NCBI RefSeq assembly: GCF_020463795.1
Contig: NZ_CP080025.1
Coordinates: 3,717,501-3,781,500 of the forward strand
Origin: Echinicola marina
Lineage (GTDB): Bacteria; Bacteroidota; Bacteroidia; Cytophagales; Cyclobacteriaceae
DNA: 64,000 nucleotides
Direction of reading: 5' to 3'
Notes under the pieces: model-generated
Database searches by the model: none
What the model saw: the letters and a program-made list of their open reading frames with translations, nothing else
What the model was told of the DNA's origin: nothing
Shown here: positions 1,096 to 11,667 of the stretch, piece by piece
How positions within the stretch are numbered: the first letter of the stretch is position 1
Layout of the letters: the number at the start of each line of letters is the position of its first letter
Program-made: the position numbers and the translations under genes

Positions 1096-1429
1096 ATAGA
1101 TTAAAGGGATACTTTTTTTGCCAAAGAGGAATAGCTGTAAGGGGATAGGGTGATGATAAACTATTTTTTCTAAATCAATTGTTAAAATGAGAATTTGTAA
1201 TTGATGATTTGGTATTGGTGACTAATCTATGAACAGACAAATACGGTGTTTTGTTTAATATTGGATCATATTATTCTAAAAAATAGTTTTTTAATGTTCA
1301 AAAAGGCTGGATTCTTGTTTTTTAGGTCTTTTGTGCTAAATTTGATAAAGATGGCTGCCAACAAAGAGAAAGTCGTATTCCTGCCCATAATAATCCACTT
1401 GCTTGTAAAAAGCATTTATTGCTAGATAT
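1096..1429. other. Intergenic region, promoter area of interrupted sigma gene
   Basis: This 334-bp stretch is AT-rich and holds no gene that I can support. It separates the leftward hypothetical gene from the original rightward start of the ECF sigma gene at 1430, so it should contain both promoters. I see no clear hairpin terminator or RNA gene. Confidence 0.4.
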
Positions 1430-1459
1430 ATGAATCCAATTAAGTTAAACAATATTTTA
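1430..1459 (+). pseudogene. 5' fragment of ECF sigma factor gene (codons 1-10)
   Basis: An ATG at 1430 opens a frame reading M-N-P-I-K-L-N-N-I-L and is cut at 1459 by the left end of the IS1595-type element. When the element and one copy of its 8-bp target duplication are removed, this frame joins without shift to codon AGA at 2503 and continues into the sigma factor body (R-K-I-V-E-D-N-D-Q). This is therefore the displaced true N-terminus of the downstream sigma gene. The join was read directly from the sequence; that it was the native start is inference, supported by the frame match. Confidence 0.8.
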
Positions 1460-2494
1460 TATGTGTATCCGTAAGAGTGCACGTAATAAAATATGACAAT
1501 ACGTGTCATTAAATTTCAAGGTATCAGGATAGTTGTTTTCTTGCATAAAAACAAGAAAAGCTATGAACCTTATAGAATTTACGGGCCATTTCCCAGATGA
1601 GGAAAGTTGTGAACAATACATCAAGAAATACCGTGAGAAAAGCGGTATACGGTGCAAAAACTGTGAGAAGATAACCCGACACTATTGGTTTGCCAACGGC
1701 AGGTTTTTCGAATGCAGCAGTTGTCGGAGACGTTCTTCTCTTAAATCAGGGACGGTAATGGAAAACAGCAAGCTTCCGCTCCGTATCTGGCTATTGGCCA
1801 TGCTGTTTATGTCGGCGACCAAGAAAGGGTTTTCCTGCCTTGAGCTCCAGCGGCAACTGGGGCTTAGCCGATATGAGACCACTTTCCGTCTGATGCACAG
1901 GATACGGTCAGCCATGGGACAACGAGATGAGCTTTATATCCTCAGTGACATGATTGAATATGACGAGTGTTATATGGAAACCGTACAGGAGAACCAGATC
2001 TTGGGTCAGCTTAAACGTGGAAAAGGCAGCCAGAAACAGACCGCAGTAGCGGTGGCGGCCGAATCGGTACCCTTGGAAGACCTGGATTCCGGGCAGAAAA
2101 CAAAGCGCTGTGGCTATTTCAAAATGAGGGTCATGGACAAAGTGGACTGCGAGAGTGTCAATGCCTTTATCCGGGCCAATACCGTAGGGGATGTGGTACT
2201 GTTTACAGACAAGAACACGGCCTACTCGAAAATAGAGGAAGTGGTGGCCACCCATTTGGCCGTTCCATCGGGAAAGGAGTCCGTAAACGACACCTTAAAA
2301 TGGGTACACAAAGCAATCAGTAATCTTAAAAGAACCCTGTTGGGGGTATATCACATGATAACTTATAAATATTTACAGAACTATTTAAATGAGTTTGTTT
2401 ACAGATTGAACCGAAGATATTTTGGCAAAGGACTCTTTGAAAGGCTCGTTATTGCGGGCACTTACCCATACGTGCAGTAAAACGGATACACATA
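1460..2494 (+). mobile_element. IS1595-family (ISXO2-like) insertion sequence, complete
   Basis: The element is 1035 bp and bounded by inverted ends TATGTGTATCC (1460-1470) and its complement (2484-2494). The similarity continues inward, with a shared TGCACGTA block at about 1478-1485 on the left and its complement near the right end. A perfect 8-bp direct repeat ATATTTTA flanks it at 1452-1459 and 2495-2502. Eight-base duplications are typical of IS1595-family transposition. It carries one transposase gene on the + strand and looks intact, so insertion may be recent. It has landed inside codons 10/11 of an ECF sigma gene. GC content and codon use of the element are visibly higher than in its AT-rich surroundings. 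Confidence 0.92.
1563..2480 (+). CDS. IS1595-family transposase (ISXO2-like)
   Basis: The protein has 305 residues from the ATG at 1563; a start ten codons upstream is open but less likely. An N-terminal zinc ribbon is visible with C31, C34, C51 and C54, as in the IS1595/ISXO2 group. A helix-turn-helix-like segment follows (LELQRQLGLSRYETTFRLMHRI). The DDE-type nuclease core includes acidic residues in IEYDECYME and LFTDKN, and the C-terminal block NLKRTLLGVYH followed by KYLQNYLNEFVYRLNRR is characteristic of the family. It catalyses DNA strand cleavage and transfer of its own element. No frameshift or stop is present, so it is probably active. The gene ends only 14 bases before the right end of the element. 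Confidence 0.93.
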   Translation: MNLIEFTGHFPDEESCEQYIKKYREKSGIRCKNCEKITRHYWFANGRFFECSSCRRRSSLKSGTVMENSKLPLRIWLLAMLFMSATKKGFSCLELQRQLGLSRYETTFRLMHRIRSAMGQRDELYILSDMIEYDECYMETVQENQILGQLKRGKGSQKQTAVAVAAESVPLEDLDSGQKTKRCGYFKMRVMDKVDCESVNAFIRANTVGDVVLFTDKNTAYSKIEEVVATHLAVPSGKESVNDTLKWVHKAISNLKRTLLGVYHMITYKYLQNYLNEFVYRLNRRYFGKGLFERLVIAGTYPYVQ

Positions 2495-3009
2495 ATATTT
2501 TAAGAAAGATTGTTGAAGACAATGATCAGCGAGCATTTGCGACTTTTTTTGATCATTACCATACCAGACTGATCAATTTAGCCTTATTGTTTTTACCAAA
2601 TTATCAAATGGCAGAGGAGGTGGTTTCAGATGTGATTTTGCAGCTACTTCAGAAGAGAGAAGGCTTACTCCAAATTCAAAATTTTGAAGGATATCTTTTC
2701 AAAATGGTTAAAAACCGGGCACTGAATATGCTTAAGGTTTCTTCAAAAGAAAAGGGAAAAATCAGTATTGATGATATACAAGATTATCTTATTCCGGATG
2801 TTTCAGATCCTGAAAAGAGGATGATCAATAGTGATTTAAGAAGGGAACTTAATCGGGTAATTGAAAACTTGCCACCAAAAAGAAGGTTGGTTTTTAAAAT
2901 GGTAAAGGACGAAAATATGTCTTATAAAGAGGTGGCTGAGATATTGGAAATATCAGAAAGAACTGTTGAGGTTCATTTAAAATTGGCCATTTCAGATTTA
3001 ATCTCTTAG
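2422..3009 (+). CDS. ECF sigma-70 factor (FecI-like), both ends replaced by IS DNA
   Basis: The surviving frame encodes 195 residues. Native sequence runs only from codon 2503 to 3000 (166 codons). The first 27 residues come from the right end of the upstream IS, and the last two residues and stop come from the left end of the downstream IS. Region 2 (from RAFATFFDHYHTRL through VVSDVILQLLQKRE to FEGYLFKMVKNRALNML) and region 4 with its helix-turn-helix (YKEVAEILEISERTVEVHLKLAISDL) are both intact. The family directs RNA polymerase to SusC/SusD promoters under control of a FecR partner, which lies downstream at 3779. Whether it is still translated depends on a start inside the IS end, so activity is uncertain. 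The ancestral protein would have been about 203 residues. Confidence 0.85.
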   Translation: MAKDSLKGSLLRALTHTCSKTDTHNILRKIVEDNDQRAFATFFDHYHTRLINLALLFLPNYQMAEEVVSDVILQLLQKREGLLQIQNFEGYLFKMVKNRALNMLKVSSKEKGKISIDDIQDYLIPDVSDPEKRMINSDLRRELNRVIENLPPKRRLVFKMVKDENMSYKEVAEILEISERTVEVHLKLAISDLIS

Positions 3010-3555
3010 GGTCAAATTCCCCGAGGCTAGCCTCGTTTTACTATCTTGTGACTCGATGTCGCAAGAAAGTAAGTATATCCATAAGAGTCATAATGTATCA
3101 GTTTTGCTGTACCATATAGTTTGCTCAGCAAAATATAGACGAGTAGTGTTCAGTAAAGAGGTTGATAAAGTTCTGACATCGACGTGTGAACAGATAGAAC
3201 TAAGATATGAGATTAAATTTCTGGAAATCGGTACAGATGCTGACCATGTACATTTTCTGATCCAATCGGTTCCAACGTATAGTATAACCAAAATAGTGAG
3301 AAAGATAAAGAGTTTAGTGTCACGAGAGGTGTTTAAAGAATGCCCAGAGGTGAAAAAACAGCTCTGGGGAGGGGAGTTTTGGGGTAAGGGATATTTTGTC
3401 AATACGGTAGGCCAACATGGAACAGAGGAAAAGATCGCTAATTATGTAAAGAGTCAAGGGCTGGAAAAAGGATATAAAAAACTGAAGACCAATTATCAAT
3501 TAAAAATATTCGATTGACCAATAATGCCTCGTGGGCTTGCCCCGAGGATTATTTA
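3001..3555 (+). mobile_element. IS200-type element of the IS200/IS605 family
   Basis: The element is about 555 bp and carries only tnpA. It has no terminal inverted repeats. Instead each end bears a hairpin: CGAGGCTAGCCTCG at 3022-3035 on the left, and a stem with a bulged T at 3527-3547 (CCTCGtGGGC / GCCCCGAGG) on the right. Subterminal hairpins recognised by the Y1 transposase are a hallmark of this family. ATTTA occurs just before the left boundary (2996-3000) and at the right boundary (3551-3555). Boundaries were set by restoring the sigma-factor frame, where GAT-TTA at 2995-3000 continues as CGG-GCT at 3556, so they may be off by a few bases. Confidence 0.85.
3056..3517 (+). CDS. tnpA: IS200/IS605 family Y1 transposase TnpA
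   Basis: The protein has 153 residues, normal for TnpA. The HUH metal-binding motif is seen as H64-V65-H66 in DADHVHFLIQ, and the catalytic tyrosine is most likely Y130 in EEKIANYVKSQG. It cuts and joins single-stranded DNA at hairpin-bearing ends and needs no target duplication. The frame is intact. No tnpB partner is present, so this is the IS200 subtype. The gene sits between the 3' part of the sigma gene and its displaced tail. Confidence 0.93.
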   Translation: MSQESKYIHKSHNVSVLLYHIVCSAKYRRVVFSKEVDKVLTSTCEQIELRYEIKFLEIGTDADHVHFLIQSVPTYSITKIVRKIKSLVSREVFKECPEVKKQLWGGEFWGKGYFVNTVGQHGTEEKIANYVKSQGLEKGYKKLKTNYQLKIFD

Positions 3556-3639
3556 CGGGCTATCCTTCAGCAATTTTATGATGAATATAAGGGCAGGATT
3601 TCAGTTTCAAATCAGCGGTTTCTGTCTTTATTGTTTTAG
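3556..3639 (+). pseudogene. 3' fragment of ECF sigma factor gene (last 27 codons)
   Basis: Reading from 3556 in the frame of the sigma gene gives R-A-I-L-Q-Q-F-Y-D-E-Y-K-G-R and on to a TAG at 3637-3639. Joined to the sigma body before the IS200 element it restores an uninterrupted C-terminus (AISDL + RAILQQF). A free 27-codon tail in exact frame is unlikely by chance and shows that the element inserted inside the coding sequence. It can no longer be translated with the rest of the gene. Confidence 0.8.
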
Positions 3640-3778
3640 GGTATACTGACTGAGATATTTTTTGGTATTATATCCATCATTGAAATATTTTTTTTGAAAA
3701 AGTAAAAAAAGTCAAATAATCATTACGGGTTTTTAGAAGAACTGTTGTCTTTATTATTGATCGAGATAATGTGACTTC

Positions 3779-4801
3779 ATGGATAAGAACCAAGATATAG
3801 AAATTTTATTAATCAGATTTTTTCAAGGAAGTGCTTCTGCTTCTGAAAAGAAGGCTGTGCATGAATGGCTGAAAAAGGATCATAGAAACCAGTATGAATT
3901 CGAAAAACTCCAGTCTTTTTGGGAGGATGACATTGAGGACCATAAGTTAATTAACCACGAGGATCAAAAAAGTAAGATTTGGGAAAAGTATTTGAGAGAT
4001 GCTCCAAATGAATCAACTAAAAGATGGAATATAAGAAGGATTAGTTATGGACTAGTAGCATCACTGGTGACTATTTTGGTGTTGTCCCTTATTTTTTTTA
4101 GTAAACAAGAAGTAGTAGTTCAGCCTACTTCAGTTGCTATGGTTGATAAAATGAACCCCTTAGGACAAAAGTCTCAATTTCAGTTACCTGATGGATCAAA
4201 AGTTTGGCTGAATGCAGACAGCAAAATTTCTTTTCCGGAGAATTTTTCGGACTCAAGTCGTTTAGTGAATTTAGAGGGCGAAGCATTTTTTGAGATTGTT
4301 ACTGACAAAACAAGGCCTTTTACTGTCAAAACAAATGAATTTGATATTCAAGTGTTAGGGACAGCATTTAATGTCCATGCATTTAAGGAAGAAGGTCAGT
4401 CGAGTGTGGCTTTGCTAGAGGGATCGGTCAAGGTCATCAATCAAAATGAGGGACAAGATAAAGAACTATTTTTGAGTCCAGGAAAGGGGCTAACTTATAT
4501 CAAGTCACTTGACGCATTTCGTGAGTTCAGCAGAGAAAAGGATCCAAACACATTTAATAAAGCGATTTATTGGAAAAATGGAGAGCTGATATTTAATGGT
4601 GTGGATCTTTCGGGATTTGTAAAGGAAATCAGTCGATGGTACGGGGTAAGCGTAGATATTCATGGCGTACCCAATCAAACCTGGCATTTAAAAGGAACTT
4701 TTAAGAATGAATATTTATCCAATATTCTTGATGCTGTATCTTATAATAAAGGGTTTCAATATGAATTAAAAGATAAGAAATTGATCATCACATTTAACTA
4801 A
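3779..4801 (+). CDS. FecR family anti-sigma factor (DUF4974)
   Basis: The protein has 340 residues. The N-terminal cytoplasmic segment (about 1-85) would bind the ECF sigma factor, one membrane helix spans about 89-107, and the periplasmic part holds a FecR domain (LPDGSKVWLNADSKISFP ... EGEAFFEIV ... FTVKTNEFDIQVLGTAFNVHAF). The C-terminal region (about 260-340) matches the DUF4974/STN-like pattern common in Bacteroidota. It should transmit a signal from the STN domain of the SusC encoded next to the sigma factor. Its partner sigma gene immediately upstream is interrupted by two insertion sequences, so this protein may lack a functional target or may control a truncated one. Confidence 0.9.
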   Translation: MDKNQDIEILLIRFFQGSASASEKKAVHEWLKKDHRNQYEFEKLQSFWEDDIEDHKLINHEDQKSKIWEKYLRDAPNESTKRWNIRRISYGLVASLVTILVLSLIFFSKQEVVVQPTSVAMVDKMNPLGQKSQFQLPDGSKVWLNADSKISFPENFSDSSRLVNLEGEAFFEIVTDKTRPFTVKTNEFDIQVLGTAFNVHAFKEEGQSSVALLEGSVKVINQNEGQDKELFLSPGKGLTYIKSLDAFREFSREKDPNTFNKAIYWKNGELIFNGVDLSGFVKEISRWYGVSVDIHGVPNQTWHLKGTFKNEYLSNILDAVSYNKGFQYELKDKKLIITFN

Positions 4802-4904: not shown

Positions 4905-7900
4905 ATGAAAAAACGAGTACTAAAACTATTGCTCATGGGATTTACCTATTCTATAATTGGGCTAATCACTCAGATTTTATTTGTGAACATGTTATGGGCT
5001 ACGGATACCAATGCCCAAAGTGTGAAAAGCATGAAAGAAGTAAGTGTCAATGTCGGCTTTGATAACAAGAAGCTTGTTGATCTATTTGGGGAACTGGAAT
5101 TGAAGACCCCTTTTGTGTTTGTCTATGATAAAGATGATCCGTTTTTATCAGAAAGAATTAGCCTTGTGAAGAAGAAGCAAAGCGTTGAAGATGTTTTGAT
5201 CGAAATAGCCAGAGAGAAAAAACTCAGATTTAAGCAGGTTAACAATAATATCAGCGTAAGCAAGGCTTCTTCCGAGGAGAAAATAATTGAATATGCCATT
5301 AGGGAATTTACTGTAAGTGGAACAGTCCTTTCGAATTCCGATGGGCAGCCCATTCCTGGCGCAACGGTAATAGTAAAGAATTCTACCAAGGGGACCGTTA
5401 CTGATATAGATGGTAACTTCTCGATTGAAGTGCCTGATGTAGGAGCTGTATTGGTCATTTCTTTTGTGGGTTACAAGGCTCAGGAAATTTCAATTACTAG
5501 TCAAACTATACTGGAAGTCAGTTTGGAAGAAGACTACCAAAATATGGATGAAGTAGTAGTAATTGGATATGGAACACAAAAGAAAAGTGATTTAACTGGA
5601 GCTGTTGTTTCAGCTAACGTAGAATATTTGACTCAAATGGGAAATGTATCCGCTTTTCAAGGGCTTCAAGGATCTGTCCCTGGACTAAATATTGGAGCTG
5701 TAGATGTAGCTGGAGAAAATCCCTCATTTTCGATAAGGGGGCAAAATACGATTTCGAGTAGCCAAGGTGATAATCAACCATTGATTGTTGTAGATGGAAT
5801 GATATATAGAGGTAATATTATTGATATCAATACCGCTGATATAAAATCAATAGATGTATTAAAAGACATCAGTTCAACTGCTATCTATGGATCTCAAGCC
5901 TCTAATGGTGTAATACTTATTACAACAAAAAAAGGAGGAGAGTCGAAAAAGCCTGTAATTAATTATAGTGCTAGTTATTCTTTACAGATTCCTTCCAATA
6001 AACTAGAACCAATGGAAGGAGAAGAACTCGATATGTTTTTACATGATGTTTTTTGGGACAATGGTAGCCGTATTGGGCCTGATTATTTAGAGAGCAATCC
6101 TGATTTTACTTTAACTCCATATTTTAGAAATGGTGCCATTGCTGATAATTATTCTGCTGGAATAGAAAATGATTGGTGGGGATCATTGACCCATAACGGA
6201 AGTACGAACAACCAAAATGTAAGTATTAGAGGTGGAGATGAATGGGTTAGCTATTTTCTATCAGGAGGATTTACAGATGTTAAAGGTTTTATGGAAAATG
6301 AAGCTTTTAAAAAATATAATTATCGAGCAAATCTAAAGGGAAAGATAAATAATTGGCTTAGTGTAGGTTTAGAGTCTTTCTTAACCACCAGTGATTATTC
6401 AGGAATTTCACCGAATATATCAGATACGTTTGTGATGTATCCATGGGCTCCTGTTTATGATGAGAACGGGGATTATGCATTAACCCCTGATAACCGAGGC
6501 CTGAATCCGTTTTTGCAAATTCAACAAGATAATTCAGATAAGCGATTTAATCTGTTTGGAAAAGTTTTTGCCGAAGTAAGCCTTCCTTTTTTAGAAGGAT
6601 TAACATATCGACTTAATTTTTCCCAGAACTATAGAAGGACTGATCAATTTACTTTTAATCCTTGGGGTGCTAGCTATACGGGAGCTGGTTCTAAATTTCA
6701 TAGCCAAGATTATGATTGGATATTTGACAATATTGTTTCCTATAAAAGGACATTTGAAGAGGATCATAAGTTGGATGCAACATTCCTATATGGAGTAGAG
6801 GAAAGAAATGTGTCTAACACTAATACTAATGCCCAGAATTTTGTAAATGATTTGTTGGGTTATGATAGACTTCAGGCAGGAGATCCAACATTGAACGGTA
6901 TTTCTACTGGGCACGAAAAAGAGACCAGCTTATATATGATGGGCAGATTGTTTTATAGCTTTAAAAACAAATATATGATTACTGGTACAGTAAGAAGAGA
7001 TGGTTTTTCAGGGTTTGGTAGTCAAAATAAAGTTGGGGTGTTTCCATCAGTTGCTTTGGGCTGGGTTCTTAGTGAAGAAGATTTTTTTGGCGGACTTTCC
7101 ACAACTGTAGATTATTTAAAGCTTAGAGCTTCTTATGGTAAATCTGGAAGAAGAGGTGTTGGGAGGTATCAGACGCAGTCAACGGTAGATTCACATCCTA
7201 GTGTGGTTTTTGGTGATGGAGGTTCAGCTACACAAGGTCAGTGGATTACAACCCTTGCAAATGATGAATTAGGGTGGGAAACTACGACAGGTCTCAATTT
7301 GGGGATAGACTTTGGTATTATAGGCTCTAGAATCAATGGTAACATAGAATATTACAATAACAATACTAGAGATATTCTTTACAATGTTCAGTTGCCGGTA
7401 GCTACTGGATTTACATCTATTGCTACGAATATTGGTAAAGTAAATAACTGGGGAGTAGAATTGGGACTAAATGCAACCGTTCTTAACCAAGAAAAATTTA
7501 AATGGAAAGCCGGTTTAGTTTATTCAAGGAATAGGAATGAAATAGTTTCTATCCTTGGAAGTGCTAACGATAATGATGGAGATGGTAAGGAAGATGATTT
7601 AGTGGCCAATGGATTGTTTATAGGCCAGCCTCAAAGTGTTAATTATAATTATGAAATTGAAGGGATGTGGCAAATAGCAGATCAAGAGGCTGGTAATATT
7701 CCTAGTGGGTTTTTGCCTGGAACTTACCGACTTGCAGACTTGAATGGAGATGGAAAAATAAGTGCCTCTGATGATCGGAAAATTTTGGGCTATCAAGACC
7801 CTGCATATAGAGTTGGGCTAACAAATAATTTTACTTACAAAAACTTTAACCTCTATGTATTCATTAATTCCATCCAAGGAGGAAAGAATTATTATCAAGC

Positions 7901-8285
7901 AAATCTAAGTTTTGGAACCAATCCATGGCATAAACTTGATCAATTAGTTTATTCCAACCCGCCAAAGGGAGCTTGGGATTATTGGATGCCAGAAAATCCT
8001 AATGCGAAATTTAGAAGACCAGATACCTATTCTCAATTGGGACAGTATGCAGGACCTCACCAACAACGAAATTTTATTAGGGTTCAGGACGTTTCGTTGT
8101 CTTATACCTTTGACAAATCTATCTTAGAAAGAATTGGAGTGAAAAATTTGAAGCTCTTTTTGAGTGGCAAAAATCTTTTCACTTTTACGAAGTGGGACGG
8201 TTGGGATCCTGAAACAGGTGTTGGTTTTGTGCCGGGACGCCCTGTTATGACAAGCTATACCCTAGGCCTTAATCTTGATATTTAA
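4905..8285 (+). CDS. SusC-like TonB-dependent transporter with STN domain
   Basis: The preferred ATG at 4905 gives 1126 residues with a signal-type hydrophobic segment (LLLMGFTYSIIGLITQILFV). A TTG 24 codons upstream lies within a hairpin and is less likely. Order of domains: STN signalling domain (about 50-115, NVGFDNKKLVDLFGELELKT), carboxypeptidase-D regulatory-like domain (about 130-210, PIPGATVIVKNSTKGTVTDIDG), plug with DEVVVIGYGTQKKSDLTGAV and VLKDISSTAIYG, then the outer-membrane barrel ending in SYTLGLNLDI. SusC proteins import oligosaccharides with SusD as lid. The STN domain indicates signalling to the FecR/sigma pair encoded upstream. It is followed after 11 bases by susD, which is frameshifted, so the transporter may lack its lid. 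Confidence 0.93.
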   Translation: MKKRVLKLLLMGFTYSIIGLITQILFVNMLWATDTNAQSVKSMKEVSVNVGFDNKKLVDLFGELELKTPFVFVYDKDDPFLSERISLVKKKQSVEDVLIEIAREKKLRFKQVNNNISVSKASSEEKIIEYAIREFTVSGTVLSNSDGQPIPGATVIVKNSTKGTVTDIDGNFSIEVPDVGAVLVISFVGYKAQEISITSQTILEVSLEEDYQNMDEVVVIGYGTQKKSDLTGAVVSANVEYLTQMGNVSAFQGLQGSVPGLNIGAVDVAGENPSFSIRGQNTISSSQGDNQPLIVVDGMIYRGNIIDINTADIKSIDVLKDISSTAIYGSQASNGVILITTKKGGESKKPVINYSASYSLQIPSNKLEPMEGEELDMFLHDVFWDNGSRIGPDYLESNPDFTLTPYFRNGAIADNYSAGIENDWWGSLTHNGSTNNQNVSIRGGDEWVSYFLSGGFTDVKGFMENEAFKKYNYRANLKGKINNWLSVGLESFLTTSDYSGISPNISDTFVMYPWAPVYDENGDYALTPDNRGLNPFLQIQQDNSDKRFNLFGKVFAEVSLPFLEGLTYRLNFSQNYRRTDQFTFNPWGASYTGAGSKFHSQDYDWIFDNIVSYKRTFEEDHKLDATFLYGVEERNVSNTNTNAQNFVNDLLGYDRLQAGDPTLNGISTGHEKETSLYMMGRLFYSFKNKYMITGTVRRDGFSGFGSQNKVGVFPSVALGWVLSEEDFFGGLSTTVDYLKLRASYGKSGRRGVGRYQTQSTVDSHPSVVFGDGGSATQGQWITTLANDELGWETTTGLNLGIDFGIIGSRINGNIEYYNNNTRDILYNVQLPVATGFTSIATNIGKVNNWGVELGLNATVLNQEKFKWKAGLVYSRNRNEIVSILGSANDNDGDGKEDDLVANGLFIGQPQSVNYNYEIEGMWQIADQEAGNIPSGFLPGTYRLADLNGDGKISASDDRKILGYQDPAYRVGLTNNFTYKNFNLYVFINSIQGGKNYYQANLSFGTNPWHKLDQLVYSNPPKGAWDYWMPENPNAKFRRPDTYSQLGQYAGPHQQRNFIRVQDVSLSYTFDKSILERIGVKNLKLFLSGKNLFTFTKWDGWDPETGVGFVPGRPVMTSYTLGLNLDI

Positions 8286-8296
8286 TTCCAGAAGCT

Positions 8297-9959
8297 ATGA
8301 AAAAAACACTATATATATTTGCTTTGATCTTGATGGTTACTGTTTCATGTAATGAATCTGATTGGCTTGCTGAAGAGACTTTTGATTTTTATTCAGCGAA
8401 TAATTCTTATAATACTGAGGATCAGTTTAATGCTGCTGTAGCAAGACTGTATGAGAAAGTAGAGCCTTTTTACACCTTTTGGCCCCCGTATTTAGGGAAC
8501 GCGTTTTTTTATACGTCTGATATTGCATATGACGCCATTTCAGTTACTCATCAGCTCAATTCTTATGAAGATAAATTGATTCCTGAAGCAACTATGGTTA
8601 GTACTTATTGGCAAAGATTTTATTCAAATATTTATGATGCCAATGTAATTATTAACAGGATAGAAGGTGAGAATACCCAGTTTTCTTCGGAAGCATCTAG
8701 AAATGCATTAAAGGCAGAAGCCATGTTTTTCAGGGCCTATAATTATCGCTTCTTAAATATTTTGTTTAAAGGAGTCCCGCTGGTTACTGAGGAAATTCGG
8801 GCCCCAAAGAGAGACTTTGTTCGAGCTTCAGAACAAGAAATTTGGGACTTGGTAGTTAGTGATTTGCTCTTCGCTGAAGAGAATTTGCCTAACGTGACCG
8901 AATTGGAAGAGGATGGGCGATTAACGAAGGCTGCAGTTAGACATTTATTAGCAGAAGTGTATATCTCCAAAGGCGAATATGATAAAGCTATTGAGAAAGC
9001 GACTGCTGTAATAGATGATCCCAATTATGCCTTGATGAAAACACGATTTGGTACTCGACAAAATGAGGAAGGAGATGTTTATTGGGATTTGTTTAGAAGA
9101 GGCAATCAAAATCGAAAGAGTAGTGGAAATACAGAAAGTATCTGGGTCAAGCAATATGAATATTTGGTAGAAGGTGGAGGACAAGATTATCGTCTAACAT
9201 GGGTATATGTTCCCAATTACCCTTTATTAAAAGATGAAGATGGCAAGTCCTTATTTATTGGACCAACTTCCCAAAATGGAGGAGATGGTGGGGGGGGGTG
9301 CAACTGATTATCTTTTACATGAAGTATGGTCTTCAAGTCAAAATGATGTGCGAAACTCTACAAATAATATTATAAGGGATATAAAAGCTGATAATCCAGA
9401 TTCAAAATACTATGGACAAAATATTGTTGAAAGTGGTGCAATAAACTCTTTTCCTAATGCCTTAAGTAGGTGGTGGTCCGCCATATTTGCCAAAACGACC
9501 CCCATTAATAATTTTCCAGATGAAGTAATACTTGATAAATCTACTGGGCTCGTCTCAGGAGGCGCTGCTTTCACTTACAGAGATCATTATATATTTCGAC
9601 TGGCTGAAACTTATCTTTTAAGGGCGGAAGCATATCTAGGAAAGGGAGATATGGCAAATGCTGCAAATGACATTAACATCATTAGAGCTAGGTCAAATGC
9701 GGAACCAGTATTACCTTCGGATGTTGATATAGATTATATATTGGATGAACGGGCAAGAGAGTTGCATTTTGAGACACCTAGACTCTTGACTCTAATGCGT
9801 TTGGGAAAACTAGCAGAAAAAGTAAAAGAAAGAGACCCGATGCATAATGGGAAATATGCAAATCATGGCGTTTCGGAAAAGCACAACAGGTGGCCGATTC
9901 CTCAAAGTGAAATAGAGCGTAACACTGAAGCAGTACTGGAACAAAATCCAGGATATTGA
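8297..9959 (+). pseudogene. SusD-like glycan-binding lipoprotein, frameshifted at a G9 run
   Basis: Two overlapping frames (8297-9307 and the frame ending at 9959) together encode one SusD of about 553 residues. The first frame begins with a lipoprotein signal (lipobox Cys18) and contains SusD helices; it stops shortly after a run of nine G at 9290-9298. The second frame, one base over, carries the C-terminal RagB/SusD part (YIFRLAETYLLRAEAYLGKGD ... RELHFETPRLLTLMRLGK ... RWPIPQSEIERN). Removing one G joins them perfectly (GGDGGGGATDYLL). The lesion could be a real slipped-strand switch, a fixed mutation, or a sequencing artefact in the homopolymer. An intact form would bind glycan at the cell surface with the SusC just upstream. 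Confidence 0.88.
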
Positions 9960-10209: not shown

Positions 10210-11667
10210 ATGAAAAAAAGTTTGTTGTTCTTTTTGCTTCTTGGGATTTCAATAAACGCTTTTTCGCAAAAGGAAAAGCAGTCAAAACCCAATGTTATCT
10301 TTATTATGGCTGATGATATGGGGTATGGAGACCCCCAATGCTATAATAGTGATTCTAAAATACCTACGCCAAACATGAACCGTTTGGCAAGTGAAGGAAT
10401 GATGTTTATGAATGCTCATACAGCCTCATCGGTTTGCACCCCTTCACGGTATAGTTTTATTACCGGTAAATATGCATGGAGGTCAAATTTGAAGCGGGAG
10501 GTGCTTTGGTCCACCTATAATGACCCTTTGATCGATAAATCAGAGGTGACCATTGCCGATATGCTTAAAGATCAGGGTTACGCTACGGCGGTGGTTGGAA
10601 AATGGCATCTAGGAATAAATTTCCTTAAAAATCAGGGATTTGGATATGTTCAAGCTAAAGATTGGCATGAACAAGGATTGAAAGGTACGCGTGATGTGAA
10701 TTTTATGAACCCTTCATACGGTGGGCCAAATGATTTAGGTTTTGACTATTTTTTTGGATCAGGAGGAGGCCACAATATGGAACCTCATGTTTTTATAGAA
10801 AATCGGTATACCTATGGTTTGCCTACAATATGGAGAGAAAAGGGACAGCCGTCCAAAGAAGGGATTTCGGCTAGTGAAGTACATGAAGGCTGGATGGTTG
10901 AAGGCTGGGATGATACGGAGATAGGTCCTACACTTACAGAAAAATCACTTCAATTTATTGAAGAAAATACAGCACTAGGGAAGCCCTTTTTCTTATACCT
11001 TCCAACAGTTGCTCCTCATAGACCTTGTACCCCTGCTGATTTTGCCAAAGGCAAAAGTCAGGCAGGAGAAAGAGGAGATATGGTTTATGAGTTTGATTGG
11101 TCAGTAGGACAAATTATGGAAAAGTTAGAAGAATTAGGAATTGCTGAGAATACGATACTGATTGTTTCGAGCGACAATGGTGCAACTCCGACCAGTGATG
11201 ATGGTAAAAATTACGGGCATAATTCCTGTGGGGATTTAAAAGGTTTCAAGGCTTCCTTGAATGAAGGAGGACATAGGGTGCCTTTTATTGTAAGATGGCC
11301 TAGTGAAGTTAAACCAAGTACCCAAAACAATGGAATGATAAGCTTAATGGATATATATGCTACCTTATCAGAAGTTTTAGGTACTGAGGATCCTAATGGT
11401 GACGGTATAAGTTTTTTATCCTCATTGAAAAATGAAAGAGCGCCTGCTAAAAGGACGGAAATGGTTCATCATACTTATTCGGGAGGCTTTGCTTTAACAG
11501 ATGGTGATTGGAAAATAATTCCGCATAGATCCAATAAGGATGGATCTTGGGATTTTGAACTATATAATATCAAAGAAGATCCTAATGAAAAGAATAATTT
11601 ATCCAGTAAGATGCCTGAAAAAATTAAGGAGTTGATGGACAAACTCAATGAGAATATTTCCAGTTAA
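10210..11667 (+). CDS. S1 family sulfatase (arylsulfatase A-like), exported
   Basis: The protein has 485 residues with a signal peptide ending near residue 20 (INAFSQ). The N-terminal metal-binding segment contains D35 and D36 (FIMADDMGYGD). The formylglycine motif C76-T-P-S-R80 marks the catalytic cysteine that a maturase must oxidise. Further family features are GKWHLG (residues around 132-137), PTVAPHRP and the SSDNGA segment. It hydrolyses sulfate esters from a glycan in the periplasm. Its place after an SusC/SusD pair implies that the PUL 1 substrate is sulfated, as in many marine polysaccharides or glycosaminoglycans. The exact S1 subfamily cannot be fixed by eye. No maturase gene is visible in the window. 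Confidence 0.92.
   Translation: MKKSLLFFLLLGISINAFSQKEKQSKPNVIFIMADDMGYGDPQCYNSDSKIPTPNMNRLASEGMMFMNAHTASSVCTPSRYSFITGKYAWRSNLKREVLWSTYNDPLIDKSEVTIADMLKDQGYATAVVGKWHLGINFLKNQGFGYVQAKDWHEQGLKGTRDVNFMNPSYGGPNDLGFDYFFGSGGGHNMEPHVFIENRYTYGLPTIWREKGQPSKEGISASEVHEGWMVEGWDDTEIGPTLTEKSLQFIEENTALGKPFFLYLPTVAPHRPCTPADFAKGKSQAGERGDMVYEFDWSVGQIMEKLEELGIAENTILIVSSDNGATPTSDDGKNYGHNSCGDLKGFKASLNEGGHRVPFIVRWPSEVKPSTQNNGMISLMDIYATLSEVLGTEDPNGDGISFLSSLKNERAPAKRTEMVHHTYSGGFALTDGDWKIIPHRSNKDGSWDFELYNIKEDPNEKNNLSSKMPEKIKELMDKLNENISS

Follow-up and report, generated by a model that had tools for sequence, protein, structure and literature searches.

Has the FecI-like ECF sigma factor of Echinicola marina, whose gene is cut by two insertion elements, been silenced, or do the elements cap a regulator that still works? 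The window (the whole 64-kb stretch of DNA that was analysed) favors a recently silenced sigma regulator over an element-capped working one, with a probability of about 0.8; the loss of expression is what we infer from the state of the gene, its relatives and its operon.

Reconstruction of the Sigma Factor Gene

When the flanks of both insertion elements are rejoined, the FecI-like gene has 203 codons (1430-1459 + 2503-3000 + 3556-3639) and matches its relatives end to end, bearing out the two-element interruption with exact reconstruction that the initial annotation had proposed. Element 1 interrupts the gene after codon 10 and element 2 after codon 176, leaving it without an intact start-to-stop frame:

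1430..1459, + strand: sigma codons 1-10 (MNPIKLNNIL), which now run on into YVYP and a stop in element 1
2503..3000, + strand: sigma codons 11-176, containing regions 2 and 4 (PF04542, 4.9e-9; PF08281, 8.4e-15)
3556..3639, + strand: sigma codons 177-203 and the native stop, stranded (alignment with relatives)

Regions 2 and 4 are the only sigma regions in this protein, and the matches to PF04542 and PF08281, both above the cut-off and both within 2503-3000, agree with the earlier claim that the two conserved regions had been retained. The native ATG now opens a frame of 14 codons that ends at the stop inside element 1; neither the sigma core nor the 27-codon tail has acquired a stop or frameshift.

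Orthologs and Selection

An empty-site alignment with five relatives was collinear across the sigma gene except for one extra codon in a Cytophagales metagenome-assembled genome (L011), where the orthologous sigma factor has 204 amino acids; it has 203 in four Echinicola genomes (E. shivajiensis, E. arenosa, G007 and G010). The sigma core shares 91% of its amino acids with E. shivajiensis and 87% with E. arenosa, the nearest named relatives, and the sigma factor of G010 is 63% identical to that of E. marina; in the other six of the ten congeners searched no sigma ortholog was seen, the best match there being at most 45% identical. None of the five closest relatives has a sigma factor that begins or ends as in 2422-3009, the frame that now spans the element junctions. 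The genome collections covered, which have one genome per species, contained no E. marina strain free of the elements. The homologs, too, have native ends as the reconstruction implies: among the best 80 of 223, at least seven residues precede the first insertion point in 75, and 11-40 residues follow the second in all 80. Homolog starts were set mechanically, those without an ATG being read from the preceding stop, and the five homologs scored with zero upstream residues are cases in which the open frame has its first ATG beyond the insertion point.

In comparison with the relatives, dN/dS was 0.05-0.07 for the sigma core and 0.12-0.15 for the stranded tail; the insertions look recent (see below), which would explain the still-low value of the core. 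Relaxed selection was uninformative as a test of silencing, since 11 replacement and 22 silent codon changes occur only in E. marina, and four and 13 only in E. shivajiensis (Fisher P = 0.53).

The Two Insertion Elements

Both elements lie where the initial annotation had placed them, element 1 after codon 10 with a perfect 8-bp duplication on its flanks and the IS200-type element 2 27 codons ahead of the ancestral stop:

1460..2494, + strand: IS1595-family element 1, 1,035 bp, ends TATGTGTATCCG inverted (Pfam match, copy comparison)
1563..2480, + strand: IS1595-family transposase gene (PF12762, DDE_Tnp_IS1595, 2.2e-22; PF12760, 1.4e-5)
1452..1459, + strand: target duplication, left copy, ATATTTTA (flank comparison)
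2495..2502, + strand: target duplication, right copy, ATATTTTA (flank comparison)
3001..3555, + strand: IS200-family element 2, 555 bp, target TTTA^C (Pfam match, copy comparison)
3056..3517, + strand: IS200-like Y1 transposase gene (PF01797, Y1_Tnp, 4.8e-37)
3022..3035, + strand: terminator-like hairpin followed by a T run, just within element 2 (four such sites in 1200-3800, 1.7 expected)

Element 1 resembles other members of the IS1595 family in its ISXO2-like transposase and zinc ribbon domains, its terminal inverted repeats and its 8-bp target duplication, which is the value for this family; nothing unusual was seen in it. The genome holds 17 full copies that are 99.5-100% identical, seven of the others being identical to the copy in the sigma gene, and one additional diverged copy (86%). 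An AT-rich 8-bp duplication flanks 15 of the 17 full copies and is missing from two; when the flanks are joined, only the sigma copy among the 17 splits an ATG-started open reading frame of at least 70 codons.

Two element-1 copies without the 8-bp duplication stand 3.8 kb apart elsewhere in the genome (L116, 3004-4038 and 6781-7815), next to another copy whose duplication is perfect; the pair has perhaps recombined.

Members of the IS200/IS605 family make no target duplication and insert beside a short fixed target. Element 2 conforms to the IS200-like type, with a Y1 transposase as its sole gene, a left-end hairpin, no duplication and the fixed target TTTA, and differs in that the bases on either side of the insertion are fixed: all nine full copies have TTTA to the left and C to the right. 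Because TTTA also forms the end of the element, the exact boundary of element 2 is uncertain by four bases. The nine full copies are 98.9-100% identical, with two others identical to the copy in the sigma gene, and a partial copy (93%) is also present; joined flanks indicate that four of the nine split an ATG-started frame of at least 70 codons.

The same IS200-family element also splits a hybrid two-component regulator (L120, 5940-7115 and 7749-9245) with periplasmic binding, kinase, receiver and AraC domains, located about 7-8 kb from a SusC gene with a G8 run; this is a probable second sugar-locus regulator hit by element 2.

Both insertions look recent, judging from near-identical element copies and from the lack of any full-length relative above 71% in the other genomes of the 118 family genomes searched (own included), where full-length matches reached at most 67% for element 1 and 71% for element 2; this search scored only the best three and five candidates per genome, and shorter matches of higher identity occur. 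As a caveat, gene conversion could also produce near-identical copies, which counts against recency. The closeness of the two insertions has a chance of about 0.03 under uniform placement of 17 and nine copies, a post hoc estimate; a gene that was already dead would tolerate a second hit, which bears on this closeness.

Promoter-Like Sites

Two stretches of noncoding DNA are relevant to expression of the sigma gene and of its putative target:

1337..1344, + strand: promoter-like TAAATTTG, 93 bp ahead of the ATG of the sigma gene (exact TANNTTTG, TTG upstream)
3640..3778, + strand: region between the sigma gene and fecR; CATTACGGGT at 3721-3730 lies within a shared block (relatives' alignment)

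The first site was assigned by TAAATTTG/TANNTTTG, which we take to be the promoter motif. An equivalent site lies 93-106 bp ahead of the sigma ATG in all three orthologs scanned; as a control, the plus strand of the window has 45 exact occurrences of TANNTTTG, nine of them with TTG upstream. The native sigma promoter is probably intact and would read into the co-directional element 1. At 2418, in the end of element 1, a weaker promoter-like site departs from the motif at one base and likewise has TTG upstream. The block around CATTACGGGT is common to E. marina, E. shivajiensis, G007 and E. arenosa and absent from G010 and L011; it may be a candidate target promoter of the sigma factor. A scan for sigma-70 promoters found 10 sites against 8.4 expected and was of no use here.

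The Fused Reading Frame

The sigma core is continuous with a frame that enters element 1 on its left and element 2 on its right:

2422..3009, + strand: fused open frame, TTG to TAG, 195 amino acids, with its start in element 1 and its stop in element 2 (reading of open frames)

The frame is open into the right end of element 1, as the initial annotation had noted, and covers 85 bases there. Such an in-frame run is unremarkable: at three of 17 copies this element-1 frame continues for 192, 170 and 159 codons beyond the element, and an in-frame join of element end and gene is expected by chance about once in six (1/2 for sense orientation, 1/3 for phase); a selected fusion of element and gene is not needed when a comparable frame of more than 150 codons occurs at three of 17 copies. 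The ATG that had been assigned to 2422 is a TTG. Further TTG codons occur at 2437 and 2452, and the element contains no ATG or GTG in this frame; the first ATG, at 2608, lies inside sigma region 2, at a codon position that specifies Gln in the three Echinicola orthologs compared. Of the proposed element-supplied ends, the stop is confirmed, since element 2 adds Ile-Ser and then the stop codon TAG (3007-3009), and the ATG start is not, element 1 offering only TTG codons.

AlphaFold2 models were built for the fused protein (33 sequences; mean pLDDT 79.5, pTM 0.52) and for the intact E. shivajiensis ortholog (32 sequences; mean pLDDT 78.5, pTM 0.47); a length filter retained 39 of the 80 homolog loci, and the alignments used 32 of these. 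In the fused protein, ten-residue block means of pLDDT reached 81-95 in region 2 and 83-92 in most of region 4, and were 47 and 49 in the two N-terminal blocks, whose 20 residues come from the element; the arrangement of the domains is uncertain at this pTM. In the E. shivajiensis model a helix spans residues 162-187, and pLDDT falls below 50 in the ten C-terminal residues. If made, the fused protein could fold, minus 11 residues of this long predicted helix.

The Downstream Operon

The sigma gene is followed by genes of a glycan-uptake operon:

3779..4801, + strand: FecR-like anti-sigma gene (PF04773, 2.8e-19; PF16344, 9.7e-14)
4905..8285, + strand: SusC-like receptor gene, residues 1-200 and the rest having different closest relatives (segment identities)
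8297..9307, + strand: SusD-like gene, N-terminal half, frame lost at a G9 run (PF14322, 1.2e-20)
9290..9298, + strand: G9 run at the SusD frame break (reading frames)
9234..9959, + strand: SusD-like gene, C-terminal half, in another frame (PF07980, 7.7e-28)
10210..11667, + strand: sulfatase gene (PF00884, 2.6e-53)

By its domain matches this locus resembles other Bacteroidota FecI/FecR/SusC-SusD loci, with a sigma factor, FecR, a SusC with an STN-like N-terminus, SusD and then a sulfatase; it differs from them in its doubly interrupted sigma gene and its out-of-frame SusD. The FecR and SusC frames are open. Plug and CarbopepD_reg_2 domains were matched in SusC, and the STN signaling domain only weakly (E 0.0033; 17.6 bits vs. 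a cut-off of 28.4). Four homologous SusDs have at most five G at the position of the G9 run and a frame that is open throughout; the break in E. marina could reflect slippage, phase variation or sequencing error. If the G9 length is right, the lesions affect both a regulator and a transporter component of this operon, as would be expected of a silenced locus.

Another SusC gene of the genome is out of frame as well (L176, 2523-3131 and 2-2548, minus strand), at a G8 run (2529-2536); its close homologs in G001 (L179) and in E. shivajiensis (L180) lack this run and are open. Genome-wide there are 18 runs of at least eight G. Two break a receptor gene (the G9 run of the window and the G8 run of L176), 10 lie in frames that are open through them, five have no open frame of 90 codons nearby, and one (L119) is close to the end of a 121-codon frame.

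Silencing or Capping of the Regulator

Recent silencing would have begun with a normal 203-codon FecI-type sigma gene ahead of FecR and SusC/SusD, disrupted twice as both elements multiplied. Transcription from the native promoter probably continues into element 1, the native ATG would start nothing longer than the 14-codon frame, and the sigma core would be left without an ATG start before region 2; little or no sigma protein would be made, and the adjoining operon would lose its specific activator. Silencing is favored by relatives that are intact at both insertion points, by the lack of an ATG upstream of region 2 in the fused frame, and by the broken SusD; the absence of separate lesions in core and tail, together with the dN/dS of the tail, argues against it, as does an open fused frame in which both sigma domains are predicted to fold. 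Where the initial annotation had allowed for either an IS-capped or a silenced regulator, the latter is preferred, the former having rested on a nonexistent ATG. A capped regulator that works would require a read-through or element-borne transcript and a TTG start, giving a protein of about 195 amino acids with a new N-terminus, a shortened C-terminus and perhaps altered control by FecR. Such a product is unlikely, even though the frame 2422-3009 is open, regions 2 and 4 are both recognized as sigma domains and fold in the AlphaFold2 prediction, the ten C-terminal residues of the intact E. shivajiensis ortholog also score below 50, the native promoter-like site is intact and a one-mismatch site with TTG upstream is available at 2418. 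TTG can start translation, yet such starts are regarded as uncommon in the host phylum; a start at the 2418 site would leave only the TTG codons at 2437 and 2452, and the element part of the frame offers no ATG. Moreover, in-frame read-through is expected in about 1/6 of insertions into a gene, element 2 removes 11 residues of the predicted helix 162-187, and the broken SusD leaves such a sigma factor little to run.

Translation from the ATG at 2608, which is in frame and replaces the Gln of the three Echinicola orthologs, might yield a leaky remnant, a fragment from approximately region 2.2 onward that may interfere by binding FecR or polymerase; it would do without the first helices of region 2, and its likelihood is distinctly below that of a capped regulator. 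The lowest probability of all goes to an assembly artefact. Multicopy elements are classic points of misassembly, whereas the genome is a single contig of 5,693,670 bp, of which the window takes up 3,717,501-3,781,500, and the E. marina SCS 3-6 genome was built from PacBio and Illumina reads according to an excerpt of its report (PMC8683446). The perfect site-specific 8-bp duplication, a TTTA^C site as in the other copies of element 2, and rejoined flanks that give a frame matching the relatives also speak against misassembly. Recent silencing would be gene loss of an ordinary kind, yet a clean case, with two young-looking elements, relatives that are intact at either site and another lesion in the operon; a glycan-uptake locus would have lost its regulator before its sequence decayed. 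In open-licence literature on Echinicola genomes, ECF sigma factors and SusC, SusC recombination, element fusions, insertions into sugar-locus regulators, the element families, and poly-G phase variation, no title or abstract opening described this sigma case or the receptor exchange considered below.

Apparent Exchange of the SusC Receptor

Relative to the same locus in sister species, the E. marina SusC is chimeric. Its residues 1-110 are 97% identical to the SusC at this locus in E. shivajiensis, 94% in E. arenosa and 79% in G007; the corresponding values for residues 110-200 are 88, 84 and 70%, and beyond residue 330 identity to the same locus in the sister species is 25-26%. This latter part is instead 58-59% identical to SusCs at other loci of E. 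arenosa, G007 and G005; in the first 110 residues the likeness to these SusCs is just 19-24%. Besides the window, the receptor comparison took in L109, L110, L111 and L157-L159. DNA similarity ends at window position 5486 for E. shivajiensis, 5572 for E. arenosa and 5607 for G007, corresponding to about residues 194-234, around a (D/E)EVVV(I/V)GYG stretch. An excerpt of a study of such SusCs (PMC7782687) names DEVVVTG as the Ton box, to which the stretch at the E. marina locus is similar, and places an NTE before the STN domain; here, the weak STN match precedes CarbopepD_reg_2. Judging from these segment identities, the E. marina SusC is a chimera that changes near the TonB box. Receptor parts differ among the other species as well: beyond residue 330, the SusCs of E. 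arenosa and G007, which are close relatives with a sigma dS of 0.14, are 30% identical, and that of G007 is 89% identical to E. shivajiensis. Behind one sigma-FecR module, the four species carry three barrel types that are mutually 25-30% identical; the unit of sigma factor, FecR and SusC N-terminus is conserved from species to species, and plug, barrel and SusD differ.

A tentative model, to which we give slightly less than even odds, is that the sigma factor, FecR and the SusC N-terminus up to approximately the TonB box form a conserved signaling socket, onto which Echinicola species recombined different plug-barrels and SusDs near the TonB box; the E. marina socket would just have been switched off by insertion into the sigma gene, perhaps with slippage in the G run of SusD. 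Such a receptor exchange would matter more than the gene loss, as it suggests that cell-surface signaling modules of Bacteroidota are re-usable with new transporters. The additional step, in which the element-capped sigma factor constitutively regulates the swapped receptor, is improbable.

The FecR gene shows 40 replacement and 52 silent changes found only in E. marina, vs. seven and 26 found only in E. shivajiensis (P = 0.035, on an unrooted tree); the many E. marina-only replacements are a hint, possibly of fit to a new receptor or of relaxed selection.
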